Shown here in pieces: positions 8,833 to 48,994 of a stretch of DNA of 48,994 nt; within the stretch, counting starts at the first letter, position 1, and each line of letters starts with the position of its first letter. The notes below the pieces were generated by a model that saw only the letters and a list, made by a program, of their open reading frames with translations, was not told the origin of the DNA and made no database searches. Location of the stretch: positions 1-48,994 of the forward strand of contig CALIZI010000171.1 of NCBI GenBank assembly GCA_938028705.1. The letters are read 5' to 3'. A program made the translations under genes and the position numbers. The stretch comes from an uncultured Saprospiraceae bacterium. Lineage in GTDB: Bacteria > Bacteroidota > Bacteroidia > Chitinophagales > Saprospiraceae.

Positions 8833-9417
8833 ATGGGGTCATTTTCTACATATTTGCAATTGGGTTTTGAGCATATTTCTGATATTAATGCTTACGACCA
8901 TATTTTATTTATCGTGGCTTTGTGTGCCATATACCGTTTGTCGCAGTGGCGGTCTATCGTCATACTTGTGACAGCATTTACGATTGGTCATTCGGTGACG
9001 TTGGCTTTGGCGGCACTGAAGATTATTCCGGTACGGCAGGAAGTGGTTGAATTTTTGATTCCTGTAACGATATTACTGACCTGCCTGTACAACGTGACCG
9101 GCTATGCTGCAAATTTCGACAAAAAATCATTACGTATCAAGTACCTCTTAGCTGCTTTTTTCGGATTGATTCATGGTATGGGCTTTTCCAATTATTTTAG
9201 TATGCTGATAGGCAAAAGCGATAGCCTTGTGCTGCCTTTATTTGCCTTCAATGTGGGTATCGAATTGGGTCAATTGATTATTGTAGCCATTTCACTGGCA
9301 GCGGCTTATTTGGCTCTGAATATTGCCAATGTCAAACAACGGGAGTGGAATCTGTTTATCTCCGGTGCAGTGGCAGGTATGGCATTGATGCTGATGGTGG
9401 AAACTAAATTTTGGTGA
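8833..9417 (+). CDS. HupE/UreJ-family membrane protein
   Basis: This 194-residue integral membrane protein has about six hydrophobic helices. The His-containing motifs of the HupE/UreJ family are present: YDHILFI near residue 22, TIGHSVTLALA near 52 and GLIHGMGFS near 112. Characterised members move nickel or other metals across the inner membrane; in Bacteroidota the substrate is not established. It is divergent from the DUF6702 gene. The ATG at 8833 is the first available start and fits family length. Confidence 0.82.
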   Translation: MGSFSTYLQLGFEHISDINAYDHILFIVALCAIYRLSQWRSIVILVTAFTIGHSVTLALAALKIIPVRQEVVEFLIPVTILLTCLYNVTGYAANFDKKSLRIKYLLAAFFGLIHGMGFSNYFSMLIGKSDSLVLPLFAFNVGIELGQLIIVAISLAAAYLALNIANVKQREWNLFISGAVAGMALMLMVETKFW

Positions 9418-25119: not shown

Positions 25120-28100
25120 CTACTGTGTCACCTGCACCTTCACCCCCTCCGAATGACTCGTAAATTCCGGCGCATACATACACTGAATAGTCGTAATTCC
25201 ATTAGAAAAATCGCCAGCGTGTTGTACTCGTAGTGGGTACTCGAATACGTAAGTACCTTTCGGCAGACGCTCCATAAAAAAGTGTGTCGCGGCATCGCGG
25301 GTGGACTCGTAATAGCCCAATCCGCCTTGCCATTTATACTGACTGAGTACGTTGACGGGTTCAAATCCGGCGGCACGCATATCTTTCATGTGGATGTACT
25401 CCATGTCGCGGTCCACGCGGAGTTCGATGCGGACTTTTAGCTTGTCGCCGGGCGTGAGGGGCGTGCCTGTGGCGAGTGGGCGAATGGCTGGTCCGGTGTC
25501 GGTATTTTCTTCGCGGAAGAGTTGCTTTTTGAGCGTGAGGGGCGTGTCCTCGAAGGTCGTGATTTTGTCGAGTTGCTCAAAATATTGCCAGTACATCGCG
25601 CCCCAAGCTACTACATCATTTGGGTTGCTGACTTCGACTTTCGACATGTCATTTTCGACTGCCTCGCCATCCCAACTTGTCTTAAAATATCCCGTTCCGG
25701 CTTCAGCTTGGAGTGTGCTTTGGTCGATTTTTTTCTTGCCGACTTTGACTTGTACGGGGGCATCTTCAAGCAACCAATTCGTACCCGACATCAGCAAGGC
25801 ATAGACCGCCGAAGAAGTCGCCTTTGTGGTGCGCCAATGATTGGTTTGTTTGTGCTTGAGCATCCATACTTTTAGGTCGTCCACTGCCTTATCGTCTTGC
25901 GCTACATCTTGGAACACTTCTATCATTAAAGCATGTGTTTCGATGGGATGTTGATACCAATAATAACCGCGATTATATTTCCAATACATGCCCAATTCAT
26001 CATTATTTAATGACCTTTCTTTCAATGATTTAATGATGTTTGTAGGAATGTCGGGTTTATCATTTCGATGAAGGGCGAGGGCAATCATTCCCTGTAAATA
26101 TAAACCCTTATCCGTCCAGTATTTTTCGGATTGTGAAAGGTAATAATCGAAGGCTTCGCGTGTACCGTTGGGAATGGCAATTTCTCCGAAAAAAGACCGC
26201 GTATAAAGGTAGTGAATTGCCATTCTGTCTAAATGGTCATCTTCCAATTTGCCGCCATATTTTTTCAGGTTCTTTTTCATTTCATTATAATGTTCTGCCA
26301 AGCGTTTATCAATATAATTGACGGATTTGGTCATCATCTGATTGGCTTTTTTATCGTCTTTCAATGCCTTCACACCGAGCTTGTCGAGATGCCCCATGCC
26401 CGACACGATATGTTGCGTAATATACCAACTATCGCGCCCACCGGGAAACCACGAAAAGCCACCATTGCGGTCCTGTCGTTCACTCATTTTTTGTAGGGCA
26501 ATTTCCTGTTCATTCGCCATTTTATTGAGGTCGAAAAGCAAGCCGATACGCTTCTTTTGTGCTTCTTCGCTTTGGGCATTGAGTACCCACGGGGTCTCGG
26601 TGAGGAGGGCGGTTTTGAGTTCTTCATTTTTCGACAAATTACTCAACATCGCGTCCGTATTTTTCCATTGTTCAAATACTCGCTGTACTTTCGGATGCGA
26701 ATTTGCCACCGAAGAAGCCAAACTATTCGCATAAAAACGACTAAAAATTTGCTCGGTACAATCATGCGGATATTCCATCAAATAAGGCAGTGCCTGCACC
26801 GCATACCAAGCCGGATTGGAGGTAAATTCGAGGGTCATTTTGTGGTGGTCGAGCGTATTGGAAGCGGCGGCTTTTTCCATCGCTTTGAAGGTGAAAGTCT
26901 TGGTTTCGTTGCCACGCACGGGCAGGGGCAGCGTCTCTGTGACGAGCATACGATTGGTGAGGACGGGCAGGGTACTTTCTTCACCATCCGAGTAATTCCC
27001 CGCCTTCGCCACCACACGCCATGTCACCGCCATAATGCCTTTCGGAATGTCAAGTTTCCATGATAAAGGCGCGGATTGCCCTTGCGCTACGCTGAAATTT
27101 TGCGAGGCATTTGCATTGCCCAAATCCGTATCAATTGGCTGCATCGTGAGTGCATCGAAGAGTTCGAGTTTTGCTGTTCCGTTGAGGTCTTTTTCGGAGA
27201 TATTGCTAACTTTGGCAGAGAAATATATCTCGTCTTGTTCGCGGAAAAAACGCGGTGGATTGGGCATCACCATCAATTCTTTTTGCGTGACGATTTCTTT
27301 TTCTGTAAAACCATATTCGTAATCTTTCGTATGGGCAAATCCCATAAATTTCCAACGGGTGAGGGCTTCATTCATCTTAAATTTGATGATAACACTACCT
27401 TCCGCGTCGGTCTGTAATTCAGGGAAAAAGAAGACGGTTTCATTGAGATTGGTGCGGACTTTTACGTTGGAGAAATCGGTTTCGGTTCGGGCTTCTTTTG
27501 CTGATGACGATGAAGCCCCCATGAACACAACATTAGGGTCACCGGATTCATACGTTTCTGTTATCGCCATATCTGCGCTTCCTACTACTGCGCTTTCTGC
27601 CATTTGCTCATATTTCCCCGCACCGTCACCCATCGCCACATTTGCCATTGGTGCGGGGGCGGACTTAGCTACGCGACCACCTCTAACTCTTATACCATCA
27701 ATGTAAATAATCTCATCATCTTCACGCGCACCGCGAAAAGAAACAGAACCATATGCCGAGAATCCAAACCAATTCAAGCCCGGATACATCCGATTTTGCG
27801 TATTTTCATACTGCATTCTGTTATTTCTATCTTGTGCAATATTGCCTCTACTTTGAGCGAAATTATTATTGGAAGACCAGCCTTGTCGGGCATTATTCAT
27901 CGGATAGCGCGGGATGCCCTGCCAACTGTGCGCGACAAATTGGTCGAGTGAAGCATCGTACATGGAAGCAAGCATTTCGGCAGCGACTTTATCGCCTTTA
28001 TTGCCCGAAATTTTGATTTGCCATTCCTCATCTTGTCCGGGCAATAGCTTGTCACGGAAGGTGGCGTATTCAATATTGAGGTCTTTATTGGACCACGGAA

Positions 28101-31100
28101 CGGCTATCGTGTGATTGCTCGTATATGCGCGATTATTTTTGACAAAACTTAATTTATAAAAAATATTACCACGATGTTTTTCTTCTATTTTAATGCTTTC
28201 ATTTTGAATAGAATTAGGCGTGAACCACTTGGCACTTAACTCTTTTTTGCTTAATTGTTTTTCGTATAAAATATGGGTATTCTTTTCGGCGGAGCCAAAA
28301 TAAATATTAACCGTTTCACCGGGTTCGGCTTTTGATTTATCTTGAATGTGAAAATCCACGACATTCGCGGGAGCTTTCTTTTCATTTAAATCATATAAAA
28401 CGAAATATTTGATAATTTCAATTTTTTTACCGTATTTATCTGCCGTATTAAAAGTGACTTTATAATGTCCTATATCACTCTTTTTCAATTTTTTATCAAT
28501 TACAAATTCCTTTGAAGTATTTGTATCAAATTTATCTTGAATGACCGTTTTTTCTACCTTCCAATTTTGAACTTCATCCTCATTCGCGTAAGCGTATAAA
28601 GGAAAATCGCGTTTAAATTCACCTTCGGGAATGACCTGTTTATCGGGTCTATCCCAATAGCGTTTGATATAATTTTCGGCGGGAGCGCGGAGTTTTTCGA
28701 CCTTGATGGTACCGCTTGCAGGTTCAAATTCGCCATTGAGGTTTTTCGTAGAAATAGCAAAGGCTTTGAGTTCGTCGCGGTTGAGTTTTTCGGGTACTTC
28801 GATGTCGGCACTAAGGGCGATATAGCCGACCTGTACGCGGGTGGTCGTGCTACGTGTTTCGCCTGTAATGTCGGTGATGTCGGCGGTGATTTTGTAGGTG
28901 AATTGCGGTTTTTGGTCGGCAGGAATACCACGGTCGGGCAGGGCATCAAAATCAATCGTATATGCACCCGTCGCATCGGTCACGGTCTCGCCATTTGTGA
29001 TTTCCATAGCCGGACGTTGCCACGGATTATACCAACCACAACGCCACCATTCCCAATATGGAAAACGTACCTCACGTTGCACACGATACACGACTTTCGC
29101 ACCGTCCACATTGCTTCCTGCAAAGGCTTTTGCTTGTCCTTTTACCGTAACTTTGTCGCCGACTCGGTAGCTTTCTTTTACAGGGTCAAATTTGACTTCA
29201 AACTTAGGGCGTTTATACTCTTCTACGCGGATTTGTTTGTTGCCATTTAAAGAAGAACGCAACTGCATACGCCCCATCAAACCTGCACTTGGCGCAGTGA
29301 ATGAACCGTTGATTGTGCCGTATTCATTGGTGCGTAATTCGAGTGTCTCAACATCCTGATAATTTGCGTCTTTAAAGGTGACGGTGACGGCTGTATTCGG
29401 TACAATCGTTGGCGTATTTTTGCCGTCAATATTCATCACCAAACCTTTGAAATAAATCGTTTGTCCGGGTCGGTAAATGGCGCGGTCGGTGAAGAAAGTG
29501 GTTGTTTTTCGGTCTTTGTTCTGTCTTCTATAATTATAACTATTATATCTATCATTGAGGTATAAAATATCGTTATTATAAGTAAATTTAACACGTACTG
29601 AACGACCATTTTTTGAAGTCGTTTTTTTATTAATTAAACCATTGTTATCACTCGTTGCTTCACCATCAGGTTTATAGATATTCTTGCGACTTGTACGATT
29701 GTACTCTTCCCTAAAAAACTCGGCTTTTACACCTTGCAATGGCTTTCCTGATAACCTGTCCACCATATAAAACGAGTTAGTGCCATCGCTTTCATTTCTA
29801 CTCAAAAATGCAATATTCGATACGTAGGTGAATGTATAAGCTACACTTGAAACTTCGATATTAAAACCTTCATTATCAGCAACTAAGATGGCATAATGCC
29901 CGGAAGATAAACCTTCGACCTTCAGTTCTACACTATGATTTTGATAGTCACCTTCATCCGGCAAATCATAATTTGAAGTATAAATTGCCTTTTTACTTTT
30001 CAATAATTTGATGATTTCATTTTGGTCTCTTCGATTGTTTCTATTAAGCTCGCCTTCTTCTATTTTTACTGTTTTTAAATATACTTTTTTTGTGTTTTTA
30101 TAATTTAATTTTAATAAAAAAGGCGCATCAATCGGATTGACTTTTTCCGCTTGAATGTTGATGCTTTTTTGTGTGATGTTACGCATCATATTACGACATT
30201 GCGCTGCACCATAAGAGTCAGGAAATTTTTCAGAAGCGGCTTTGAGAATGTCGTAGGCTTTTTTGATGTCAAATTGATTGGTAGCTTCGGGAGAGGGCTT
30301 GTAGGAATTTCCGCGATTGAGATAAATCTGTGCGATTTGCAACGCGATTTCGGTGTAGGCAGGATGATTTTTGTGGGTGTTTTGTAAATCTTCTAATGCC
30401 TTCAAATACAAGTCGTCTTTGTCGGACATGACGGCGTTTTGATGTACAAATTTGAGGCGTTTGAGGTCGGCATCAATGAGGGCATCAGGCGTTTTATCTT
30501 TTAAATGAAAATTTATCAAGTCCTGTAAACGCAAGATTGTGAGGTATTTATTGGAGGTTTTATCTTTTGTTTCAAAATTGTGCTTTGCAAAAGTTTTGGC
30601 TGATGCAAAGGCTTCGGGTTGGTCAATGTAGAATTTGTAGGCAGGTTGGGTGAGGTAAGTGCGTTCATTCATAAAGAAATCAATCGCACGATGCGCTAAG
30701 AAATCGTAGAGCGTGGGGCGGAGTTTTTCTGTTAGTTTTCCTTCCGTAAGGATGGCATTGAAATCGTCGAGTTTTTCCTCTTGTGTACGCTCATGTGTAA
30801 CGGAAGCATTGAAGAGGTCAATGGCTTTTTGATTGAGTTGTTCGGCAGTCCATGTTTGTACATCATCTTGCTTAAAATCAAGGGTTTGTGTACGATTTCT
30901 TAATTGCCATTGATTTTGGTCAAGGTAGTTTTGGTACATCTCACCGACCATAGATTGTAGTATCGGTTGGGCGGGAAAAGCCGCCTTTTCCGCTTCCTGT
31001 TCCATGCGATAAATCGCCTTTACATAACCGTCTTCTTCGAGTTGAGTTTGGTATTTATTATAATAGACCAATGCCTTGACGGTCTGCGGGGCGTTCTTTT

Positions 31101-31311
31101 CAGACTTGGCGCGAGTGAGCAAGGCTTCGGTTTTTTCAAGGGCAGATTTGGGTAAGCCTTGTTGCTCCAAAGAGTCTATCGTGCGCCATTCGGCATCGTA
31201 ATTATCGTAATCAGTGGACATAGTGTGGTCGGTATTTTGGCGAAAGCCGGAAAAAATAATAATCGCTAAGGTAGCAATTATGGCTATGGTAATGATGGTT
31301 ATTTTTTGCAT
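25120..31311 (-). CDS. Alpha-2-macroglobulin family protein with a TonB-plug-like insert
   Basis: The 2063-residue envelope protein has an N-terminal hydrophobic anchor (~residues 4-22) and a helical N-terminal third. The MG2 domain begins around residue 605 (TDRAIYRPGQTIYFKG). The A2M core starts near NETVFFFPELQTDAEG, with the ALTRWKFMGFAHT motif. A thioester site is present as YPHDCTEQ, Cys1518 to Gln1521, in place of the vertebrate GCGEQ. Bacterial A2Ms trap proteases in the periplasm through this bond. An insert at ~1180-1215 (SVSFRGAR, IIYIDGIRVRGG) resembles the TonB-receptor plug start. pbpC, a common partner, is absent nearby. It is convergent with the pentapeptide gene. Confidence 0.93.
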   Translation of the reverse strand: MQKITIITIAIIATLAIIIFSGFRQNTDHTMSTDYDNYDAEWRTIDSLEQQGLPKSALEKTEALLTRAKSEKNAPQTVKALVYYNKYQTQLEEDGYVKAIYRMEQEAEKAAFPAQPILQSMVGEMYQNYLDQNQWQLRNRTQTLDFKQDDVQTWTAEQLNQKAIDLFNASVTHERTQEEKLDDFNAILTEGKLTEKLRPTLYDFLAHRAIDFFMNERTYLTQPAYKFYIDQPEAFASAKTFAKHNFETKDKTSNKYLTILRLQDLINFHLKDKTPDALIDADLKRLKFVHQNAVMSDKDDLYLKALEDLQNTHKNHPAYTEIALQIAQIYLNRGNSYKPSPEATNQFDIKKAYDILKAASEKFPDSYGAAQCRNMMRNITQKSINIQAEKVNPIDAPFLLKLNYKNTKKVYLKTVKIEEGELNRNNRRDQNEIIKLLKSKKAIYTSNYDLPDEGDYQNHSVELKVEGLSSGHYAILVADNEGFNIEVSSVAYTFTYVSNIAFLSRNESDGTNSFYMVDRLSGKPLQGVKAEFFREEYNRTSRKNIYKPDGEATSDNNGLINKKTTSKNGRSVRVKFTYNNDILYLNDRYNSYNYRRQNKDRKTTTFFTDRAIYRPGQTIYFKGLVMNIDGKNTPTIVPNTAVTVTFKDANYQDVETLELRTNEYGTINGSFTAPSAGLMGRMQLRSSLNGNKQIRVEEYKRPKFEVKFDPVKESYRVGDKVTVKGQAKAFAGSNVDGAKVVYRVQREVRFPYWEWWRCGWYNPWQRPAMEITNGETVTDATGAYTIDFDALPDRGIPADQKPQFTYKITADITDITGETRSTTTRVQVGYIALSADIEVPEKLNRDELKAFAISTKNLNGEFEPASGTIKVEKLRAPAENYIKRYWDRPDKQVIPEGEFKRDFPLYAYANEDEVQNWKVEKTVIQDKFDTNTSKEFVIDKKLKKSDIGHYKVTFNTADKYGKKIEIIKYFVLYDLNEKKAPANVVDFHIQDKSKAEPGETVNIYFGSAEKNTHILYEKQLSKKELSAKWFTPNSIQNESIKIEEKHRGNIFYKLSFVKNNRAYTSNHTIAVPWSNKDLNIEYATFRDKLLPGQDEEWQIKISGNKGDKVAAEMLASMYDASLDQFVAHSWQGIPRYPMNNARQGWSSNNNFAQSRGNIAQDRNNRMQYENTQNRMYPGLNWFGFSAYGSVSFRGAREDDEIIYIDGIRVRGGRVAKSAPAPMANVAMGDGAGKYEQMAESAVVGSADMAITETYESGDPNVVFMGASSSSAKEARTETDFSNVKVRTNLNETVFFFPELQTDAEGSVIIKFKMNEALTRWKFMGFAHTKDYEYGFTEKEIVTQKELMVMPNPPRFFREQDEIYFSAKVSNISEKDLNGTAKLELFDALTMQPIDTDLGNANASQNFSVAQGQSAPLSWKLDIPKGIMAVTWRVVAKAGNYSDGEESTLPVLTNRMLVTETLPLPVRGNETKTFTFKAMEKAAASNTLDHHKMTLEFTSNPAWYAVQALPYLMEYPHDCTEQIFSRFYANSLASSVANSHPKVQRVFEQWKNTDAMLSNLSKNEELKTALLTETPWVLNAQSEEAQKKRIGLLFDLNKMANEQEIALQKMSERQDRNGGFSWFPGGRDSWYITQHIVSGMGHLDKLGVKALKDDKKANQMMTKSVNYIDKRLAEHYNEMKKNLKKYGGKLEDDHLDRMAIHYLYTRSFFGEIAIPNGTREAFDYYLSQSEKYWTDKGLYLQGMIALALHRNDKPDIPTNIIKSLKERSLNNDELGMYWKYNRGYYWYQHPIETHALMIEVFQDVAQDDKAVDDLKVWMLKHKQTNHWRTTKATSSAVYALLMSGTNWLLEDAPVQVKVGKKKIDQSTLQAEAGTGYFKTSWDGEAVENDMSKVEVSNPNDVVAWGAMYWQYFEQLDKITTFEDTPLTLKKQLFREENTDTGPAIRPLATGTPLTPGDKLKVRIELRVDRDMEYIHMKDMRAAGFEPVNVLSQYKWQGGLGYYESTRDAATHFFMERLPKGTYVFEYPLRVQHAGDFSNGITTIQCMYAPEFTSHSEGVKVQVTQ

Positions 31312-34852: not shown

Positions 34853-37800
34853 TTATCTTTTTAAGGGAACTTGGGTCCCGTTGTCAAATTTTCCACCACT
34901 TTTTATTATTGATAAATCAACTTTCATACCTCCTAGTTTATCACTTACCTGTTTCTTAAGTTCTCGCAAGCCTAACCCTTTAGCATCACCAGTTGTTATT
35001 TTACCCGTTTTAACAGCATGTAACATCGTTCTCTCTTTCGCACTACCAGGATTAGGGGTTCCAAAGGATTTCTTCATTAATTCATCAAACTTTTTTGGAG
35101 ATACTTTAATGGCTATATCTATATCAGAGTCTTTTCTTGCAGTATGGCTAGCCCTACTCCCCTGAACTACTATATTGTTTGTTAAATGTCCAACTTTGCC
35201 TCGTATCAGTTTAGAAACAGCCCCAAATTGCTCTGGAGTTACACCTTGGATAACTTGTACCTTTGGTTTACTTATCGTTGTTTTAATAGGTTTTGGTTTG
35301 GATTTTGCCTGTGACCTAACCATTCCTCTTCCTCTTCCCGCCATAGCGTATTCTTCAATTAAGTCTTGCTTTTCTTTTGCTTCTCTTTCTCTTTTTTCTC
35401 CCACAGACTCCATGGAAGCTATTCTATTATTCAATTGGTCTTCTGTGAGTGCCCTATATTCATCTAAGACTTTGGCAGCTTTACCATATCTGTCACCATA
35501 AAGATTTCCTGCAATTCTATATGCTTTACCATTTGCGACTAAATGTACATTAAGTCCATTACAGTTACAAGCTAGACCATCCCAACGATTAATAAGTTTC
35601 AATTTACTTGTTCCATCTTCTTCAAATTTAATCGTATAATATAAATTTTCAAGTCCATCAAGGTCGATATTAGATATCGGCATATTTCCCGCAAACTGAT
35701 AGGGAGTTAATTCAGGATAACCATCGGTCAAAGGATCAACACTCAAAAACTTCCCAAGCCCCGGATTATAAATCCTAAAACCATAATCATAGATAGCTTG
35801 GCTGCCCCACTCGCCGGAGGGGTCTTTTTCTTTGCCGTTGAAGCCATATCGGTAGCCTGCCACAGACATCGTTCTGTCTGCCATCTCCATCCCGAAGGGA
35901 TAATAATCAGAAGCACTTTTGACATCGGCTATGCGAGTGCTACCGCTCCACAGCTTTCTGTCGGAGACGGTGGTGAGGACATTGCCGAGGTGGTTGCTGA
36001 ACTCGTAGGTTTTGGCACCGAGGGGGCGGTGGCTGCGGTAGGCTCGCCACTTGCCGAGTGTGCCGCCTGTCCGGTTGCCGAGTTGGTACTCGCCCAAATT
36101 TAAGCCTAAATTTTCATACGTACTATTATTCAGCGTATTATCTACACTGCGGAGACCAAGACGGCTGCTGCCATAGAGGTGTTGTTCGTTGAGGGTGAGG
36201 TGGTCTTGGATTTGAGCATTTGCCTTGACTTCTTGCGCTCGTTTATAGACTGCCATCGTGTTGCCACTCGCATCGCGGACGTAATGCGTGTAGGTGACAT
36301 CCGGCTCACCAACTGCGGGGTTTTTGTGAAGGACGGCTTTGGTGATGCGATTGCCTGAGGGGTCGTATTTGAATAAGAGGTCGGGCTTGGGGCTGCCTGC
36401 CTCGCGGATGACACGCTCTACTTTGCCATCTACCCGCCATACGATTTCTTTGATGTCTTCGGCATTGTCACCGGTTAGGTTGCCGATTTCGTCGTACTCG
36501 TAGTTATCGGGGTTTTGGTCGTCTATGTCGTTGCTGTGGTTGCTGGCATTGACTGCATCGTCCACGTGACGTAGGCGGTTGCGGATGATTTTACCATTAG
36601 CGTCTTTTTCATAATGATAGGTCAAATTGTCCATTGCCTGTTCTTGTGGGGTGTTGCCACTTGCGTTTCGGAGTAGGCTGAGGATATTGCCGTTGGCATC
36701 GTAGGTGTATTGGGTATGGTAGTCCTGATTGTCACTTGCATTTCCGAAAGAGTTGGTGCTGTAGGCATTGCCTCTGAAACTGTTGCTTGACAATATACGG
36801 TTGAGTTGGTCATATTTGTAGGCATTACCTTGTATAGGAAAAGGGGTCTGACCATTGACAGGATTTATCGCAGTGACCATTTTGGAAATATTGCCATTAA
36901 AAAGGTCATCACTTGCTGCGTCTAAATCAGTACCTACAATTTTTGCCATAAAATCACTCGCAGTATTGCCCGTAGTACCACCGATTGCTTTATAATCGCC
37001 ATTATAATATTGCAAACCATAACCGTAGGCATCAGGCGCAAGATCAGCGTTGGGATTATTAGCAACGGTATGACCATCTTTTCCAATGTCTTTACCGGCT
37101 CTTAGCGTATTGCTATTGACACCTTTTATCCAACCTTGTATGGTATAGGCAAAGTCGCAGCCCTGTACGCGGAGGTCGCCGATTTCGGTACGGGCGAGGG
37201 GTCCGTGTTGATAATATTCGTAGCGGGCATCTTCATCCCATATCACGCCGTCGGGGCTGGTCATGACTTTGGTGATGCGATTGTCGCCGTCGTATTCGTA
37301 GCGGTGGAAAAATTGGTCGGCTTTGCCTTCTTGGTAATTGACCTGATGTACATTGCCTGATATGAGGTCGTAGTCGTAGGTCATGGTTTTATATCGCTGC
37401 CCTTTGAAATGCGCCAATTCGGTGTTTTCTTGTATAAGTTTTTTTACATTACCATGTATATCATAGCTGAAGTGGGAAGCACTTTGGTAGCTTGTTGCTC
37501 CTTTCGCCAATTCTTCCTGATAAATAATACTGGCTACGCGGTTGCGGAGATTTTGCTGACCTGCCGTACCAAATTCGTCATTAATATTATCATTAATAGG
37601 TCTGTCGTAGAAAGTTTTGACGACCTGAATGCGGTCTAAACTCCAATTGTTTGGGTAGTTGTCAACTTCAAACATAGTCTCAGTGGGTACGGTATTCGAC
37701 TTCAATTCTCCGGCTTCTACTATTCTACCCAATTCGTCGTATTTGGTGTAGCTGTATCTGCTCTCTGGCGTGTAGGCTTTTTGTTTACTGTTTTGGGAAG

Positions 37801-40800
37801 CGACAATACGTCCTAATTTATCATAAAAAAACTGCGTTGACCATTCCGTGCCGGGCATTTTATCGTGGTCGGGCATGGTTTGGTGCGTGAGTTGGTTGAG
37901 GCTGTTGTATTTGTAGCGGGTTTCCATGCGGTGATTGGTAGAAATATTTGTGGTGCCATTTTCGCGGTCTGCATTTACGGCAGCCCAATTGCCCGGCGGC
38001 ACGAGTTCTACACCCGCAGGCGGTACGGTGCGTGTGAGGTTGCCCGCTTGATTGTAATAATAAAGCGTGTAATGGTGTTCATTATCAGGATATTGCATGG
38101 TGAATGTTTCGGCATTATCCGCCGGGGTACATTGCTCCATGTAGTTATTTTCAATATCATCAATGACTTCCTCAATGTAATCGCCATATTGATTTTCGGC
38201 ACTGTGTGTGGCTTCGGCTATCAAATCCTCTTCACAGGTGTCTTCAATTTCAAGATAGAAAGTACGATTGCATAGTTCCATATCATCGGCTGTGGTGATA
38301 CATTCCCAAAGGGTGTAACAATCGACAGAGGTGATGACGAGAATCGTTGCATCTCTAAGTTCATTATCAACAAGGACTTGTACATCTGCCAAAAATTGCT
38401 GAACATAGCTAGGGTCATTGGCAGGCACATTTTCATTGGGGCGAATATTTTGTAAAGTTGAAATAATGTTATTTAAATCATAATCTGCATTATTATCCGA
38501 GTTCGGTTCAATGAAAGATATAGACCAATTGCAGGTTTGTCCTGTAGCACTTTGTACGGTTATGTTGATAGATGTAGGGGTGATACTGTTTGGTGTATAA
38601 ATATCATGACAATATTCTGTGTTATTATAATTTAAGTTCAAGACCTCCGCGAGTTCTGGTGCGTAAGGCTCAAGGAATGGGTCAACACAAAGACAATTGA
38701 CATCATCAAGCGTTTTTTCCTTTATAATTCGATTGAATGTATTGACAAAGGCTTCGCCCTGTGCGGTAAGGGTATCGCATACGGGCGTACTTGGACTTAC
38801 TATCCCGCAGTTGTTGATAAAATCTTCATAATCATAATAGTTCAAATCAAGGTTGAATAAATTGTTGAGGTGCGTTGCAGCCATGGTTCGCCGATTAACA
38901 AATTCCTCTGGAGTCTCGGTTGAAGGGTCGGTAACTTGTATCCATGGTTGACTGGCGTAAGCATTAAAAGCATCTGTAATTTCGGTACAAGTTGCACAGT
39001 TTTGACAAGTGATATCAGCAACGACATATTCGGTAGCACCTTCCAGGGCGGTGGTGATAGCGTTATTAGTCCAAGGCGCACCGGGAATCCAATCCTTGCC
39101 TGATTCAGCATAAGCACTCGTACAAATACAGATTTTAGCACTATAACCTTCGATTTCGGTTTCATAAGTGTATTCAAAAAGCTCTTCTACTGTGGTCACT
39201 CCTACGGGTAAGTTGCCTGTCGAGAGGTCTGTACTGAATCGATGATTAGTTTCAAGAATAGCCTCGCAAGCACACTCATCTATAGGCTTGAAGGCGGTAT
39301 ATGAAGCGTACTCATGTCCGTTGGCACCGGGGAAGTTGATGAGGTCGGCATTACAATTGATATTGATACCTGCACTGGTCAGTACTCCTACTAGTACTTC
39401 TTCAAAACTTGCATAAGTAGTACCTGTAGCACCTGTTGATGCGCCAAAAGGTTGTTCGGCACTACAAGTTGCCACCATGACATTTATAAGTTCCAGTCTT
39501 ATATTATCATAAGTAGAATTACCCGCTACCCATGTGGTAGGATCTGCGGCACAGCCTTCGAGTTTCTCCATCCAAGTATTGGCAAGTCCTTGTGCGCGGT
39601 CTGTACATTGGGTGGCAATTTCGGCTTCGGCTTCAGCGGTAAGTGCATTTATCTCAGCTTGTGTATCTACACCATCCACTTGGTCAATAAAGTCGGACAT
39701 GACATCCTCGTATTCCGGAAAATGAGAGAGTTTGCCGGAAGGTGGGTCGCAGTCTTGGTTATTATTATTCAATGCTTCTTGGTGCAGTCGCATTTTTTCA
39801 CCTATATAAAGACCTCTGAATATTTGCCACATTCTATCGGCAGTACAAATATCCGGGGGATTGAAACCATAAGTGGCACTATTATTCGCTGCGCTTGCTC
39901 CGGCGAGTTGCCATACATTGACGTTTATATCAGTATGATTATTTAAAAAAGTAATCATGCTGCTTCTCAAATTCTGACCTTCTCCGCCCGAAATAAAGAA
40001 GGGGTCGTAAGTATATGGTGAATTTCCGGCACCGTTTGGAAAATTATGCGGCGGATTCGTTCCCTGTACAGGGTTCAATAAACCTAATTGATATGCTTCT
40101 TCATAAGAATCCGTCATCGTCATCAGAAAATCATATCTTTGAGAGGCTTCCATGTCCGCACAGTCATCAAGCTGGCATTTTTCAGGATGATATTTTACAA
40201 ATACTTGTCCCCATTGCGGCTCATAAGCATTGATAAATTCTTCAAGGCTGAGTTGGTTGGGAAATACCAATTCTCCGGCTGAATTTAAGACCTTAATTTC
40301 TACTGTGATCGTCTCCGTAATGCCGTCTTCATTTGTTTGTTCATAAGTATAAAAATATTCTTCATCCGGTATATTCCCATAATATACTATCGGACTTTGG
40401 GGATTGGGATTGAGAATGGAATACGGATAATTGCTAGCAGAATAAGTACCGTTGTTTATTGCATACAGCGCATATTGCCCCGCTGCAACGGGTATAACTT
40501 GTCCGTCAATTTCAATATTCAAATCGGTATCATTGAAATCTCTCGGTTGAAAATCACCGATAAGGATGTCTGCTCTGGTCTCACATTGATTCAAAAATTC
40601 ACAATCCAATCTGCATTCGGTCTTGTCAAACAGTGTGGGCAGGTCGGCACATTCTTCATTACAATCAATTTGTTCGCATTGTGAAAAATCTATTTCTGCA
40701 ATAGCATCATCAATAAAATCGCCCAAACCAAGAATACCATCACTGTCTTTGATACAGGCTTTGGTATTTGCTTGTAAGGCTTCCTGATTCATTTGAAGGG

Positions 40801-42823
40801 TACGGCTGATGACGTATTTTCCGATGGGTAAAATAATTTGTTGAGAAGAAAGTTCTACATTTACAACGTATGAATTATTGCATATTTCACTAATCGTAAT
40901 TTCACTTTCTATATGGTTGAAGAAGGTATTACCACATTCTCCAACAATATCAATTTCTAAATCATAAACACAATTTAAACAGGCATTTGTATCGAACATA
41001 CCGTTTGCTTGAAAGGCATCAGATACGCAACCCAGCTCGTAATGTAGCCCGTGCGCCCCTCCGGTAGTAACTAAATGATGATAGGTTGAACTCAAAGGTT
41101 CTACACCGGGCTGTACAGGTTGATTATCCAAAATATCAATAATCATATCTGTACTATTTCCACCATTACTTGCCAATGCCTCCAAATTATCCGGCTTATC
41201 GCCCGCCAATGCCGTAGCAATGGTGCGCCCCTGCTGGTCCATATACGATACACTGACTTGTCCATTGGGGTCAATGACCATATTTTTTTTATAATGTTCG
41301 TTGTAACCAACTTCAGAAGCAAACAGCCTGTTGAGTTCTTCCTGCGAAGGTTTGCCATAGAAATATTTGGTGTCTTTTCCGCCGAGTTTGTGGGTTGGTC
41401 CTACACCGCTTTGTCGGCGGATGCGTCCGGTATTATCGGGTTCGTACTCTACGTGGGTGAAAGGGTAGAGTTCGGCATCAGGCACATAAGCCTGATGCCC
41501 ACTCTTGTCAGGATTGTTAGGTGAATAGTATCTTGAGGCTCCGGCATTTTTGGTCATGGGGTCGGCTAAAGTCTCGCAGGCATTTTGCGTGATGTCAAAG
41601 TGCTTTCGGTTATAACCTTTACTGTCGCTTTGGGCTTTGTTGAAGTTTTCATAAAATCCGAGTACGGCAATTTTGTTTCCGTTAGGGTCGCTTACCGGTG
41701 CGGGCAATGCCTGTACCGCTGCACGTCCTTGGTGGTCGTAAAAGGTCTCGCCAACAATCGCCTGATTGTCTGTATTGATTCTGGTAACCACCTGATGACT
41801 ACGCAACGAACCGTCGAAATACGTAACAACTTCTTTTTTCTTGCCTTCTTCGGCGTAGCTGGCGGAGTATTGCCAGTTGAGTTTATCTTGTTCGTGAATG
41901 TGGAAATTTTGAATATTAAATTTGTGTGCAAAACCACAAGGGTTTTGCCCTGCGTCAGCCGAACTCCAATTGCCCGGTATGCGTATATCGAGGTCGGTCT
42001 CATCCAAAGTCAAAGCACGTACACGAAACAACACATAGCCCTGCTCAAAAAGTAAAGAGACATTATAGGTCGTGGCAGTCGTAGTGATGCGGGTAGAGTT
42101 GTTTCTGAAATTATATTTTAAAGCCGAACAGTTCGTTATCTCATAATCATTAATGTGTAACCACTCCAACTGATATTCTTCGGCACCTGTTACGGACTGC
42201 CAGTTGACTTCGATTTGATTACCCGCTGCAAGTGTCTGATTAACAGTGAGATTGGGCGCAGCACCCGAAAAATTAAATAAACGATTGACGGTGATGTGAT
42301 TGACTAATTCTAAATTGTCATAATTTGCTGGTGATGTGGGCGTAAAACCAATATTTCCGCCTACTATTTGGACTGTAACATCATGCCCACCATTAAAAAG
42401 AAAAGCATCTCTATCTTGATGAACGACACCGGATGTATTGTCATGAGTTACGGTCAATACAGGATTAGGACTTACCGTCTGAAGTGTGTTGGTTTCATCC
42501 AAGTATGTGATGAGTAATTCCACCGTTGCCGTATAATCCGTAGCAACATAAACATCAGGATTGAGCCGCAACATGATATAATTTTGTACTTCCTGATGAC
42601 GGATATTTTGTGCGCTCATCCAATTAGGATTGGTAGAAAACAAGTCGTCTTTTATATACGATGTCTGACTTTCTATATTAGTTCCTTCTAAAACCTGTTC
42701 ATACTCTACCTCTATGGCTTTCGCAGAAAAAGAAGCCAATAAAAAGAGCATTAGCAGTGAATAAATGCCTGTATTTTTCATCGTCCGATATAGTCTATTG
42801 AGTTGATTTTTCATGTCGTTCAT
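34853..42823 (-). CDS. Giant DUF6443/RHS-repeat protein with nucleotidyltransferase-like C-terminal toxin tip
   Basis: The protein is 2656 residues. The signal peptide is best read from Met15 (MKNTGIYSLLMLFLLASFSAKA), so translation may start at 42781. Order: a beta-sandwich/Fn3-like region (~190-290), DUF6443 (~330-480), a Cys-rich region of unknown fold, YD/RHS repeats from ~1585, and the RHS core ending GFRIYNPGLGKFLSVDPL. The 264-residue tip after DLDGLE has no RHS character. Residues ~2524-2656 look like a minimal nucleotidyltransferase: GS at 2555, SDID giving Asp2567/Asp2569, and a third Asp at ~2636 in MKVDLSII. The RHS shell would encapsulate the tip before delivery. The immunity candidate follows by two bases. 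Confidence 0.92.
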   Translation of the reverse strand: MNDMKNQLNRLYRTMKNTGIYSLLMLFLLASFSAKAIEVEYEQVLEGTNIESQTSYIKDDLFSTNPNWMSAQNIRHQEVQNYIMLRLNPDVYVATDYTATVELLITYLDETNTLQTVSPNPVLTVTHDNTSGVVHQDRDAFLFNGGHDVTVQIVGGNIGFTPTSPANYDNLELVNHITVNRLFNFSGAAPNLTVNQTLAAGNQIEVNWQSVTGAEEYQLEWLHINDYEITNCSALKYNFRNNSTRITTTATTYNVSLLFEQGYVLFRVRALTLDETDLDIRIPGNWSSADAGQNPCGFAHKFNIQNFHIHEQDKLNWQYSASYAEEGKKKEVVTYFDGSLRSHQVVTRINTDNQAIVGETFYDHQGRAAVQALPAPVSDPNGNKIAVLGFYENFNKAQSDSKGYNRKHFDITQNACETLADPMTKNAGASRYYSPNNPDKSGHQAYVPDAELYPFTHVEYEPDNTGRIRRQSGVGPTHKLGGKDTKYFYGKPSQEELNRLFASEVGYNEHYKKNMVIDPNGQVSVSYMDQQGRTIATALAGDKPDNLEALASNGGNSTDMIIDILDNQPVQPGVEPLSSTYHHLVTTGGAHGLHYELGCVSDAFQANGMFDTNACLNCVYDLEIDIVGECGNTFFNHIESEITISEICNNSYVVNVELSSQQIILPIGKYVISRTLQMNQEALQANTKACIKDSDGILGLGDFIDDAIAEIDFSQCEQIDCNEECADLPTLFDKTECRLDCEFLNQCETRADILIGDFQPRDFNDTDLNIEIDGQVIPVAAGQYALYAINNGTYSASNYPYSILNPNPQSPIVYYGNIPDEEYFYTYEQTNEDGITETITVEIKVLNSAGELVFPNQLSLEEFINAYEPQWGQVFVKYHPEKCQLDDCADMEASQRYDFLMTMTDSYEEAYQLGLLNPVQGTNPPHNFPNGAGNSPYTYDPFFISGGEGQNLRSSMITFLNNHTDINVNVWQLAGASAANNSATYGFNPPDICTADRMWQIFRGLYIGEKMRLHQEALNNNNQDCDPPSGKLSHFPEYEDVMSDFIDQVDGVDTQAEINALTAEAEAEIATQCTDRAQGLANTWMEKLEGCAADPTTWVAGNSTYDNIRLELINVMVATCSAEQPFGASTGATGTTYASFEEVLVGVLTSAGININCNADLINFPGANGHEYASYTAFKPIDECACEAILETNHRFSTDLSTGNLPVGVTTVEELFEYTYETEIEGYSAKICICTSAYAESGKDWIPGAPWTNNAITTALEGATEYVVADITCQNCATCTEITDAFNAYASQPWIQVTDPSTETPEEFVNRRTMAATHLNNLFNLDLNYYDYEDFINNCGIVSPSTPVCDTLTAQGEAFVNTFNRIIKEKTLDDVNCLCVDPFLEPYAPELAEVLNLNYNNTEYCHDIYTPNSITPTSINITVQSATGQTCNWSISFIEPNSDNNADYDLNNIISTLQNIRPNENVPANDPSYVQQFLADVQVLVDNELRDATILVITSVDCYTLWECITTADDMELCNRTFYLEIEDTCEEDLIAEATHSAENQYGDYIEEVIDDIENNYMEQCTPADNAETFTMQYPDNEHHYTLYYYNQAGNLTRTVPPAGVELVPPGNWAAVNADRENGTTNISTNHRMETRYKYNSLNQLTHQTMPDHDKMPGTEWSTQFFYDKLGRIVASQNSKQKAYTPESRYSYTKYDELGRIVEAGELKSNTVPTETMFEVDNYPNNWSLDRIQVVKTFYDRPINDNINDEFGTAGQQNLRNRVASIIYQEELAKGATSYQSASHFSYDIHGNVKKLIQENTELAHFKGQRYKTMTYDYDLISGNVHQVNYQEGKADQFFHRYEYDGDNRITKVMTSPDGVIWDEDARYEYYQHGPLARTEIGDLRVQGCDFAYTIQGWIKGVNSNTLRAGKDIGKDGHTVANNPNADLAPDAYGYGLQYYNGDYKAIGGTTGNTASDFMAKIVGTDLDAASDDLFNGNISKMVTAINPVNGQTPFPIQGNAYKYDQLNRILSSNSFRGNAYSTNSFGNASDNQDYHTQYTYDANGNILSLLRNASGNTPQEQAMDNLTYHYEKDANGKIIRNRLRHVDDAVNASNHSNDIDDQNPDNYEYDEIGNLTGDNAEDIKEIVWRVDGKVERVIREAGSPKPDLLFKYDPSGNRITKAVLHKNPAVGEPDVTYTHYVRDASGNTMAVYKRAQEVKANAQIQDHLTLNEQHLYGSSRLGLRSVDNTLNNSTYENLGLNLGEYQLGNRTGGTLGKWRAYRSHRPLGAKTYEFSNHLGNVLTTVSDRKLWSGSTRIADVKSASDYYPFGMEMADRTMSVAGYRYGFNGKEKDPSGEWGSQAIYDYGFRIYNPGLGKFLSVDPLTDGYPELTPYQFAGNMPISNIDLDGLENLYYTIKFEEDGTSKLKLINRWDGLACNCNGLNVHLVANGKAYRIAGNLYGDRYGKAAKVLDEYRALTEDQLNNRIASMESVGEKREREAKEKQDLIEEYAMAGRGRGMVRSQAKSKPKPIKTTISKPKVQVIQGVTPEQFGAVSKLIRGKVGHLTNNIVVQGSRASHTARKDSDIDIAIKVSPKKFDELMKKSFGTPNPGSAKERTMLHAVKTGKITTGDAKGLGLRELKKQVSDKLGGMKVDLSIIKSGGKFDNGTQVPLKR

Positions 42824-45492: not shown

Positions 45493-47967
45493 ATGTTTAA
45501 AGAACAGGAAATATCTGCTTATATAGATGTCATTTTACCATTGGCACTACCCAAACTATACACCTATACCGTACCTGCGGAATTGCTAGAGCGGGTACAG
45601 GCGGGAGTGCGTGTAGAAGTACAATTTGGTAAAACGCGGGTCTATTCTGCACTCGTGCGGAGGGTGCATCAGACCCAACCCGACTATGCTGCAAAGCCCG
45701 TATTATCTGTCTTGGATGCTGTACCGATAGCCACCGATATGCAAATGGCATTGTGGGAGTGGATGTCCGAATATTATTGCTGCACTACGGGCGAAGTGAT
45801 GAATGCTGCCTTGCCCGCCGGATTAAAATTGGCGAGTGAAACACGAGTTTTGTTAAGTCCGATTTTTCAAGATGATTATTCACAACTAACTGATAATGAA
45901 TATCTTATTGCCGAAGCATTGAGTATTCAAGAAGAATTGAGTATTGAAGATGTCCAAAATATTTTAAATCGAAAAACCATTTATCCATTAATCAATTCTT
46001 TATTATATAAACGGGTTATTATTTTAAAAGAAGAACTCAAACCAAAATTTAAACCCAAACAAGCCACCTACGTCCGACTGACCGAACCCTACCGCAGCGA
46101 TTCCGAAACCTTGAAATTTGCCTTTGAAAAAATCGGTAATCGCGCCCGGAAACAACAAGAAACTTTGCTCGCCTATATCCAACTCAAACGTGAACCACTT
46201 GATTCGCCCAACATCACCCTTAACCAACTCTGCGAGTATGGTGGCATCAAAAAAAATCATATCAAAGAGTTGGAAAAAAAGGGTATTTTCGAGGTCTATA
46301 AAAAAGAAGTCAGTCGCATTACACCCTATGATGACGAGTTGGTCGGTACATTCGAATTATCTACTCAACAGGCGAAGGCACTCATCGAAATTCAAGCAAA
46401 TTTTGGAGAAAAAAATACTGTCCTGCTACATGGCGTGACAGGTAGTGGCAAAACCCGTGTTTATATCGAATTGATTATTGAAGCCCTTAAAGAAGAAAAA
46501 CAAGTCTTGTACCTGCTCCCCGAAATCGCGCTTACTACCCAGATAATCAATCGTTTACAAAAAGTATTTGGTAATGATATTGCAGTCTATCATTCACGAC
46601 TGAATAATAATGAACGAGTCGAAATATGGCACGAAGCCCTCATTGGCAAGCCGATTATCGTAGGTGCGCGGTCTGCGTTATTTTTGCCATTCAAAAAACT
46701 TGACCTCATTATTATCGACGAAGAACACGATGCTTCATTCAAACAACACGATCCTGCGCCACGCTATAATGCCCGCGATACAGCCATTTATTTGGCACAC
46801 AAACATGGCGCAAAAGTTCTGTTAGGTACAGCTACGCCCTCGCTCGAAAGCTATGTCAATACCCAAATCGGCAAGTATGGTTTGGTGGAAATGACCAAAC
46901 GATTTGGTGGTCTGCAAATGCCCGAAATCGTGGTGGCTGATGTGGCGAGCGAGACCAAGAAAAAAATCATGCAGTCGCATTTTACAACTGTTTTGTTGGA
47001 CGAAATTAAGGCGGCATTAGAGCGCAAAGAGCAGGTAATTTTGTTTCAAAATCGGCGCGGTTATGCGCCCACTTTGCGCTGCGAAACCTGTGGTTGGACT
47101 GCCGAATGTATCCACTGCGATATTTCACTTACGTATCACAAATATTCTAATGAAATGCGCTGCCACCTCTGCGGCTATCATACCAAACAGCCTTCGGATT
47201 GTCCGGCTTGCGGCAATCACAAATTTCTTATTCAAGGCTTTGGTACAGAAAAAATAGAGGATGAATTGCAGATATTTTTGCCCGAAGTACGGGTGGCACG
47301 AATGGATTGGGATACGGTAAAAGGCAAGAACGCTCACCAACGCATCATCACGCAATTTGAAGATAAACAGATTGACGTACTCGTTGGTACTCAAATGGTT
47401 ACGAAAGGTTTGGACTTTGATAATGTGGGATTGGTGGGCGTGATGAGCGCAGATTCCTTGTTGTATTTCCCTGATTTTCGGGCTACCGAACGTGCCTTTC
47501 AATTGATGACGCAGGTAAGCGGTAGGGCAGGACGCAAACAGAAGCAAGGCAAGGTCGTCATACAAGCAATGAATACTTCACATCCCGTTTTAACGGAGGT
47601 TTGCCTTGGCGATTTCAGTAAGTTTTTTGAGCGCGAGGAAATAGAACGCCGTAAGTTTAAATATCCGCCTTTTTATCGTTTGATTGGTTTGGAACTGAAA
47701 CACAAAAAGAAACATATCGTGGATGATGCGGCAGAATTTTTTGCACGAGAATTACAGAAAAAACTGGGCAGTCGCGTACTTGGTCCATCCGAACCCGGTG
47801 TGTCGCGGGTGCGCTCGTATTATGTGATGAATATTTTGGTGAAACTCGAACGTCGCAAAGAAGTGATTGATAAAACGAAGGCTTGGATACGAGATATTCA
47901 AGTAGATTTATCGGGCAGAAAGGGTATGTCGAGTGTGCGGGTGAATGTGAATGTGGATCCGTATTAG
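45493..47967 (+). CDS. priA: Primosomal replication restart helicase PriA
   Basis: The 824-residue superfamily 2 DNA helicase restarts stalled replication forks by reloading the replisome. The N-terminal DNA-binding domain spans ~1-110. The helicase core has Walker A GVTGSGKT (near residue 318), the DEEH box (IIDEEHDASFKQHDPAPRYNARD) and LLGTATPSLES. The zinc-binding region holds eight cysteines (CETCGW, CIHC, CHLCGY, CPACGN). Conserved GTEKIEDEL, GTQMVTKGLDFDNVGLVG and QVSGRAGR complete the family. The ATG at 45493 gives the expected N-terminus (ISAYIDVILPLALPKLYTY). No neighbour is functionally linked. Confidence 0.96.
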   Translation: MFKEQEISAYIDVILPLALPKLYTYTVPAELLERVQAGVRVEVQFGKTRVYSALVRRVHQTQPDYAAKPVLSVLDAVPIATDMQMALWEWMSEYYCCTTGEVMNAALPAGLKLASETRVLLSPIFQDDYSQLTDNEYLIAEALSIQEELSIEDVQNILNRKTIYPLINSLLYKRVIILKEELKPKFKPKQATYVRLTEPYRSDSETLKFAFEKIGNRARKQQETLLAYIQLKREPLDSPNITLNQLCEYGGIKKNHIKELEKKGIFEVYKKEVSRITPYDDELVGTFELSTQQAKALIEIQANFGEKNTVLLHGVTGSGKTRVYIELIIEALKEEKQVLYLLPEIALTTQIINRLQKVFGNDIAVYHSRLNNNERVEIWHEALIGKPIIVGARSALFLPFKKLDLIIIDEEHDASFKQHDPAPRYNARDTAIYLAHKHGAKVLLGTATPSLESYVNTQIGKYGLVEMTKRFGGLQMPEIVVADVASETKKKIMQSHFTTVLLDEIKAALERKEQVILFQNRRGYAPTLRCETCGWTAECIHCDISLTYHKYSNEMRCHLCGYHTKQPSDCPACGNHKFLIQGFGTEKIEDELQIFLPEVRVARMDWDTVKGKNAHQRIITQFEDKQIDVLVGTQMVTKGLDFDNVGLVGVMSADSLLYFPDFRATERAFQLMTQVSGRAGRKQKQGKVVIQAMNTSHPVLTEVCLGDFSKFFEREEIERRKFKYPPFYRLIGLELKHKKKHIVDDAAEFFARELQKKLGSRVLGPSEPGVSRVRSYYVMNILVKLERRKEVIDKTKAWIRDIQVDLSGRKGMSSVRVNVNVDPY

Positions 47968-48284
47968 CCCTATTCTTACAAAATACAAATGTTAAAAATA
48001 TATATTCTTTTTTTTTTAAAATAAATTTATAAAAAATTAATAATTAATTTTTAATAAAATAAAAATAAAAATAATTAGAATGTAAGATTTTAGATAAATG
48101 ATTTAAAAATGTTTTATACAGGTTGAAATAATATCAAACAAAATTCATTATTATTTGTATATCAAAAATGCTATGATTGCACAATTAGCTTTTTACCCAA
48201 AACAGAGGCTCTTCGATATACGCCCTCTGTTGGATGAATGACGGTGAGCTTGAATTTTCGGGCTTGCCGTTTTTTTTTAATACA

Positions 48285-48369
48285 AATAGTACGGGCTGTC
48301 TTTAGCTGCCCAAAAGGTCGAAAGACCTTTTCCCCACATTGGGGGCAGCTAAAGACAGCCCGTACTATT
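48285..48369. repeat. 27-bp perfect inverted repeat enclosing a GAAA-loop hairpin
   Basis: 48285-48311 is the exact reverse complement of 48343-48369. Between the arms, aaaaggtc-gaaa-gacctttt (48312-48331) forms an 8-bp stem with a GAAA tetraloop, then ccc/ggg pairing. As RNA it would form a very stable branched structure. It directly follows, in minus-strand direction, the three tandem units at 48381-48750. Confidence 0.85.
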
Positions 48370-48380
48370 CCATTAGGCAC

Positions 48381-48485
48381 AAAAAAAAACCTCCGAAATC
48401 GAATGCCTAAGCATCCGATTTCATTGGTTTCTGAAATATCCACACTTCTTTATGTAGTCCAAACAATGGTGTTTGGTGACATTTT
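48381..48485 (-). ncRNA. Tandem hairpin unit U1 (putative small RNA)
   Basis: Minus strand: AAATGTC, hairpin CCAAAC/GTTTGG, the linker GTGTGGATATTTCAGAAACC, then a 12-bp stem (gaaatcggatgc with gcattcgatttc, one mismatch, 4-base loop), GGAGG and nine T. The end is a classic intrinsic terminator. A 10-codon frame (MSPNTIVWTT) starts at 48482. It shares its layout with U2 and U3. Confidence 0.5.
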
Positions 48486-48494
48486 GAATCTGAA

Positions 48495-48613
48495 CAAAAA
48501 CCCTGGAATCAAACGTAAACGTTTGATTCCAATGGTTTTCTGAAATATCCACACATCTTTATAATCACTCAAACAAACAGCAAACAATTGCTTTTTTGTT
48601 TGATGACATTTTT
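48495..48613 (-). ncRNA. Tandem hairpin unit U2 (putative small RNA)
   Basis: Minus strand: AAATGTC, a longer first hairpin (tcaaac...gtttga), the linker GTGTGGATATTTCAGAAAACC with one change from U1 over 26 bases, then a perfect 11-bp stem (ggaatcaaacg with cgtttgattcc, 4-base loop), AGGG and five T. The second stem has a sequence unrelated to that of U1, yet pairs fully. A 14-codon frame (MSSNKKAIVCCLFE) starts at 48609. Confidence 0.5.
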
Positions 48614-48619
48614 CCGAAT

Positions 48620-48750
48620 AAAAAAACTTCAGAACCAAATGTATTGCTACACTTGGTTCTATATGCTTCTGAAATGCTTTTAATCTCTTCAAGAAAGTTG
48701 TAACCTCTGACCATACATACAGCTAACGCTGAGGATGTAAACAGTCATTT
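48620..48750 (-). ncRNA. Tandem hairpin unit U3 (putative small RNA)
   Basis: Minus strand: AAATGAC, first hairpin with CAGC/GCTG and TACAT/ATGTA pairing, a diverged linker keeping ATTTCAGAA, then a 13-bp stem (agaaccaagtgta with tacatttggttct, one mismatch, 4-base loop), GAAG and seven T. It is the most diverged unit and comes first in the direction of transcription. A 19-codon frame starts at 48748. Confidence 0.45.
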
Positions 48751-48994
48751 CAATATTTTTTTAAGAAAATTTTAAATAAAGTAATAACCCACTGAAAATC
48801 AATAAGTTAATTTTTAAATTTAAATTTCAAAAACGAGTGAAATGTCCGCTCATATGTATTAAGCGGTGAAAAATGTAAAATCCCGTCATTCGTCGGGACA
48901 AGTTGTAAAACACAAAATGTAAAATGTAAAAGTGTCGATAGGACATGAAGTTATTTATTTTTAAATTGTTATATATTTAAAATTTTGAAAATCA
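48751..48994. repeat. AT-rich right edge with inverted copy of the acatttt repeat
   Basis: No gene is visible. Bases 48916-48950 (aaatgtaaaatgtaaaag then tgtcgatag) are the inverted counterpart of the tails of the repeats at 1297-1445 and 2797-2926. A small hairpin tcccgtcattcgtcggga lies near 48881-48900. Confidence 0.5.

Follow-up and report, generated by a model that had tools for sequence, protein, structure and literature searches.

A tandem array of putative paralogous small RNA genes in two species of a Saprospiraceae genus

Three homologous units lie in tandem on the minus strand near the end of a Saprospiraceae contig and, judged from their sequence, they are probably free-standing paralogous small RNA (sRNA) genes. 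We put the probability of this reading at roughly two in three and prefer it because it explains the terminators, the kept linker, the covarying stem and the lack of downstream genes. A family of small RNAs had been one of the proposals made in the initial annotation of this DNA, and it has gained support from homologs in a sister species, from stem covariation and from the low divergence of the presumed transcript. Taking tandem paralogs to be at least two adjacent homologous units, each with an intrinsic terminator of its own, we count three in the window and two in the sister species.

Results

Array architecture

The window, meaning the whole stretch of DNA that was analysed (48,994 bases), is an entire contig (C171) of the 8.0-Mb draft genome G000, in which the three units sit between the 3′ end of priA and a dispersed repeat that closes the contig. 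One layout runs through all of them: AAATGwC and a 5′ hairpin come first, then a linker containing ATTTCAGAA, and last a hairpin whose loop has 4 bases, followed by a T-run. In transcription order, U1 covers 48614-48751, U2 48487-48613 and U3 48376-48486 (minus strand), with ATGs at 48748, 48609 and 48482 and hence spacings of 139 and 127; the common layout and the period of about 127-139 bases described in the initial annotation, whose U1 and U2 seem to be U3 and U2 of the present numbering, were seen again. The candidate sRNAs, the hairpins that end them and the block upstream of U1 are listed below, with bit scores from R1, a covariance model that covers linker and terminator and is based on five units, U1, U2 and U3 among them.

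48619-48742, minus strand: U1 candidate sRNA, from the CTGTTTACATC start region (putative start) to the T-run; linker at 48669-48692; R1 68.3 bits
48490-48613, minus strand: U2 candidate sRNA, putative start; linker at 48540-48562; R1 82.9 bits
48381-48486, minus strand: U3 candidate sRNA, putative start; linker at 48431-48453; R1 90.2 bits
48630-48661, minus strand: U1 terminator hairpin, 14 pairs, 4-base loop, T-run after it
48503-48532, minus strand: U2 terminator hairpin, 13 pairs, 4-base loop, T-run after it; the plus strand also scores as a terminator
48394-48423, minus strand: U3 terminator hairpin, 13 pairs, 4-base loop, T-run after it
48735-48802, minus strand: upstream block whose outline recurs in the sister units, made up of TTGATTwTCAGT, an A/T-rich stretch, an A-run and CTGTTTACAT; probable promoter

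Each unit beats all of its 200 shuffles in fold energy (z values of -3.56, -7.05 and -4.80). The resemblance of the second hairpin and its T-run to an intrinsic terminator, pointed out in the initial annotation, is borne out in that all three unit hairpins score as terminators; the 4-base loop given there is correct, and the stem length of 11-13 bp has to be revised to 14, 13 and 13 pairs. Seven terminator-like sites are found on the two strands between 47900 and 48994, against a mean of 0.5 in shuffled sequence, and three of the seven are the unit terminators.

Conservation of the units

Counting by eye in alignment A4 revealed that the 5′ arms of the second stem are identical in 7 of 12 columns between U2 and U3 and in 5 of 12 between U1 and U3, and we therefore regard these as homologous stems with compensatory changes. 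That the stems differ almost completely while pairing is kept, as had been stated, is true of the pairing but overdrawn for the differences. Two further units are present in G002, a species of the same genus, and in the alignment of all five, both sides change in 7 of the 12 upper-stem pairs with pairing retained. The five units have 94.1% paired cells (86.4% in shuffles) and a covariation score of 0.506 (0.314 in shuffles), values that 0 of 500 shuffles reach in either case, with the structure taken from the same sequences that were tested and with the sister copies being near duplicates, so that the five units stand for about four independent sequences. Sliding the stem arms leaves at most 56.5% of the cells paired. 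One of the five measures gives no support for structure, namely the number of further pair types (12, against 13.5 in shuffles; 470 of 500 reach it).

The two units of G002 are duplicated at 227-base spacing and belong to a 225-base direct repeat that is 91% alike without gaps. A comparison of the copies shows 2 differences in the 125 positions of the inferred transcript and 13 in the 100 flanking positions (Fisher p = 0.0008; 0.003 with substitutions only), where the transcript start was assumed at position 9293 of locus L029 and the upstream differences (two substitutions and two one-base indels in 49 positions, beside 9 differences in 51 downstream) were counted by eye. One of the two changes in the transcript falls in the stem, where pairing is kept as G-U. 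Together with the homologs in a second species and the compensatory stem changes, a transcript that diverges less than its flanks supports the selection on structure that had been proposed for this array.

The linker ATAAAGAwGTGTGGATATTTCAGAAA is common to U2 and U3 at 25 of 26 bases (by eye), and U3 is identical to both sister units at 26 of 26. The near-identity of two linkers reported in the initial annotation thus stands for U2 and U3; the third unit, U1, retains mainly ATTTCAGAA. Linker and stem core taken together (73 bases) are 84% identical between the species and not more alike than the DNA of the priA 3′ end (83.7% over the last 466 bases compared), and it is therefore the linker alone that stands out. 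As the predicted folds, viewed by eye, have no linker pairing in which all units agree, the sequence of the linker rather than its structure seems to be kept. The linker is predicted to be only partly open, with moderate accessibility: its mean unpaired value in the predicted ensembles is 0.43-0.54 in single units (0.26-0.34 for the rest of the unit) and 0.38-0.51 in the whole array. Outside the arrays, sites complementary to the linker with at most three mismatches number 0 in G000 and 1 in the sister species, and the reversed control gives 1 in G000; because this search stays at control level and yields no target common to both species, we name no target. The lack of near-complete complementary sites leaves room for the usual short seeds.

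The family appears to be restricted to the genus, in which units were found in two of the six species surveyed. When 60 genomes, G000 among them, were searched at the DNA level, 21 had matches at E ≤ 0.1, and the only genome besides G000 with matches below 1e-4 was G002. Allowing up to three mismatches, the linker pattern occurs in 2 of 398 family genomes (G000 and G002), with the reversed pattern as a control found in one (G152). An exact 20-base pattern has the G002 contig as its sole match in a collection of 84,980 species, from which the window's own genome is possibly missing. BLAST with a sister unit and its upstream block returned many short A/T-rich matches in 20 of the 60 genomes, with no unit in the 20 stretches inspected.

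A covariance-model search seeded with the units, recommended in the initial annotation, re-found the five units in the two species. R1 scores its source units at 68-93 bits, whereas all other rows in 40 genomes reach at most 35.4 bits (opposite strand of U2) and those away from the arrays at most 31 bits. At E ≤ 1 there are 26 rows in 16 of the 40 genomes (G000 included): the five units, four opposite-strand rows of the arrays and 17 elsewhere, of which the one inspected, a weak row in G003, is a plain terminator. Across 298 family genomes, searched at E ≤ 0.01 with stricter filters, one match lay outside the arrays; this match (G060, 32.1 bits), the only one of that search from outside the genus, is a plain terminator as well. 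The small RNA proposal had been made to depend on further homologs with conserved structure, and these do exist, in one other species only. Distant family members could have been missed, because first-pass scoring took at most 126 candidates per genome in the 40 genomes and at most 16 in the 298, and because two of the six genus species (G002 and G005) are drafts at 69% completeness.

Two isolated linker matches were set aside. An 18-base exact match in G028 lies inside a methyltransferase gene (Pfam), has no R1 match and is attributed to chance; a match to a 19-base pattern on a phage-like viral contig, within a 180-codon frame without Pfam match, was also taken as chance, its R1 score of 27.6 bits (E 0.0019 in that search) being carried by the linker letters. 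A text search of the literature with the linker letters found no bacterial paper, and one unrelated planarian paper contains them.

Genomic context

The next gene beyond the array is priA (45493-47967, plus strand; PriA domains by Pfam), which is convergent with it; in G002, this place is held by a convergent OmpA-family gene, and a divergent alanine dehydrogenase lies on the other side. The window's contig stops 244 bases upstream of U1, and whether the array stands free was assessed downstream in both species and upstream in the sister. As the upstream alanine dehydrogenase in G002 is divergent, the array there needs a start of its own, which argues against a 3′-UTR leftover. No credible same-strand gene was found downstream of the array in either species: the same-strand frames (of at least 60 or 80 codons) either overlap the units (48171-48443 and 48450-48692 in the window; 9233-9478 of L029) or are antisense to the convergent gene, and we take all these frames as chance.

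Since the flanking genes differ—priA in G000, alanine dehydrogenase in the sister—and the corresponding places elsewhere carry no array within contig reach, the arrays have moved or arisen separately. Neither R1 nor inspection by eye found a unit in the stretches compared, which covered the upstream side of alanine dehydrogenase (G001, G004 and G005) and the downstream side of priA (G001, G002, G003 and G004); G005 gave no priA match, and the G003 contig stops 122 bases past the matched part of alanine dehydrogenase. Joining the right end of the window to C230, which carries alanine dehydrogenase, so as to give the order seen in the sister, proved unsupported: C230 holds copies of the dispersed repeat in which the window ends, and the 651 bases before its alanine dehydrogenase contain no unit (by eye and R1).

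That dispersed repeat is intergenic and occupies 48847-48994 of the window, and a query of 48760-48994 gave 67 matches in G000 (itself included), many of them at 96-100%. It often has a second, inverted arm, and several contigs start or stop in it. Directly after the array, an inverted repeat at 48285-48369 has 34-base arms that are 91% complementary with 17 bases between them, and no second copy was present among the 135 sequence records compared. The minus strand of the window also carries two very long open frames, at 25120-31311 (2063 codons) and 34853-42823 (2656 codons); no tRNA or tmRNA was found in the window.

Upstream of the units, TTGATTwTCAGT is found in U1 and in the sister unit V1, and the A-run and CTGTTTACATC in U1 and the sister units. 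U2 and U3 lack this block, and their AAATG follows the preceding T-run at 8 and 11 bases, respectively (by eye). A sigma-70-type scan of the window stretch found no canonical promoter, with 5 sites against 6.0 expected, and the start-region pattern matches in 5 of 60 genomes, its reversed control in 4. In G000:C229 and G005:C245, a similar CTGTTTACATTTC...GAATGTA stretch occurs with neither linker nor terminator; the pattern matches in G000:C58, G011 and G034 show no such likeness to the units. Short CTGTTTACATTTCAA..AAAAGAATGTA stretches at G000:C229:14673 (L132) and G005:C245:9640 (L126) resemble the 5′ part of the sister units and possibly represent a shared promoter type. A MITE-like repeat found at L105, L109, L111, L113, L114 and L118 (G002) and at L107 and L115 (G000) carries TTGATTATCAGTTATTT or a close variant of it, almost identical to the motif upstream of the sRNA units. 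The genus has short upstream motifs of a similar kind at other places, so this block could be a promoter type in general use or simply A/T-rich sequence.

Discussion

The initial annotation had also suggested serial attenuators, and these, or riboswitch-like leaders, would put the terminator end, the small hairpin and the tiny frame at the start of every unit to use in controlling a downstream gene. In each species, however, the next gene runs convergently to the array, and as no credible same-strand gene was found downstream, the array seems to lack what defines an attenuator or a cis-riboswitch; its tiny frames are, moreover, conserved neither across units nor across species, with all four in-frame substitutions in the sister duplication altering amino acids (three residues; by eye), and we consider this reading very unlikely. 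Those frames could themselves be the product, as in a type I-like toxin-antitoxin system or a peptide-coding repeat, and an ATG frame does open every unit, with the 19, 14 and 10 codons in U1, U2 and U3 that had been described and 42 codons in both sister units. No two window units, however, encode similar peptides, none of these peptides resembles those of the sister units, and the window frames end before the kept linker. A peptide product thus seems very improbable.

In both species the array points at the 3′ end of a convergent gene, and the units might instead be plain intrinsic terminators, partly two-way, that insulate convergent genes and have no function in trans, and the U2 hairpin as well as one sister hairpin do score as terminators on the other strand. 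Insulation would leave the linker kept between species, the 5′ hairpins and the shared upstream block unexplained; the genes adjoining the array differ from one species to the other, and priA comes with its own terminator-like site (48240-48271), all of which makes this explanation unlikely in our view. Quite improbable, too, is a mobile element or repeat, resembling a MITE, a REP or an integron attC site, that folds well by chance (attC-like core sites were compared by eye). Such an element would agree with the different positions of the array, by priA in one species and by alanine dehydrogenase in the other, and with the dispersed repeat adjoining it in the window, but one array per genome was found, without scattered strong copies, and phages and plasmids gave no match.

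In the free-standing sRNA genes that we favour, the upstream block of U1 would serve as the likely promoter, with transcription starting near CTGTTTACATC, and each unit would fold into a 5′ hairpin, a linker kept in sequence and an intrinsic terminator. The RNAs of U2 and U3 probably derive from read-through of the upstream terminator, or from processing, because both units lie close behind the preceding T-run and have no upstream block. The linker is the likely stretch for pairing with target mRNAs or for protein binding, and the RNAs would act in trans. The same positions of U2 and U3 prompt a more speculative design, which we think unlikely: an sRNA operon that doses itself, in which the U1 promoter is followed by three leaky terminators in series and read-through sets a fixed, falling ratio of the units. 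Were this doubtful design real, it would yield RNAs of one, two and three units with related seeds and different stems, and a ratio set by read-through would be an unusual way to dose an sRNA. With its conserved linker, its covarying terminators and its presence in two species that can be compared, the family offers a compact and testable start on the small RNAs of Saprospiraceae.

Comparison with known systems

The initial annotation knew of no described family with this pattern, and none was found: Rfam 15 gives 0 matches at gathering score over the window, and with E values up to 10 the stretch 48200-48994 gives 32 matches, all below gathering score and none named FopS, the five best of which fall on the neighbouring inverted repeat. 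The literature search found no paper combining “Saprospiraceae” with “sRNA,” and the papers that pair it with “small RNA” concern, by their titles, plankton genomes, a lake and figs.

FopS of Bacteroides thetaiotaomicron is described as a family of paralogous sRNAs (PMC11697453), 14 in number, which share a kept seed and carry a terminator hairpin; according to the same paper it was deposited in Rfam, and release 15 may include it. As far as that description goes, the array resembles FopS in coming from Bacteroidota, in consisting of putative multicopy paralogous sRNAs, and in having a short conserved stretch, here a putative seed, and an intrinsic terminator hairpin at the end. It differs in layout: FopS counts 14 members, and the main text of PMC11697453 does not use the word “tandem”. 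The array has this other layout and gives no Rfam match at gathering score; we class it as a family that is new but belongs to a known and well-described kind, multicopy paralogous sRNAs.

Tandem layout is familiar from OmrA/OmrB and LhrC, in which several copies share a kept pairing stretch while the remainder drifts, and from NgncR_162/NgncR_163. OmrA/OmrB and LhrC belong to other phyla, their likeness to the array was judged from their description, and in the array the kept stretch lies between two hairpins. They are named as paralogous or multicopy sRNAs in PMC11697453. NgncR_162/NgncR_163 of Neisseria gonorrhoeae are described as sibling sRNAs and post-transcriptional regulators of metabolism (PMC13104608, PMC9973317). 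The array is like them in being made up of putative sibling sRNAs; the gonococcal pair, however, are known metabolic regulators, whereas the Saprospiraceae units are known from sequence alone.
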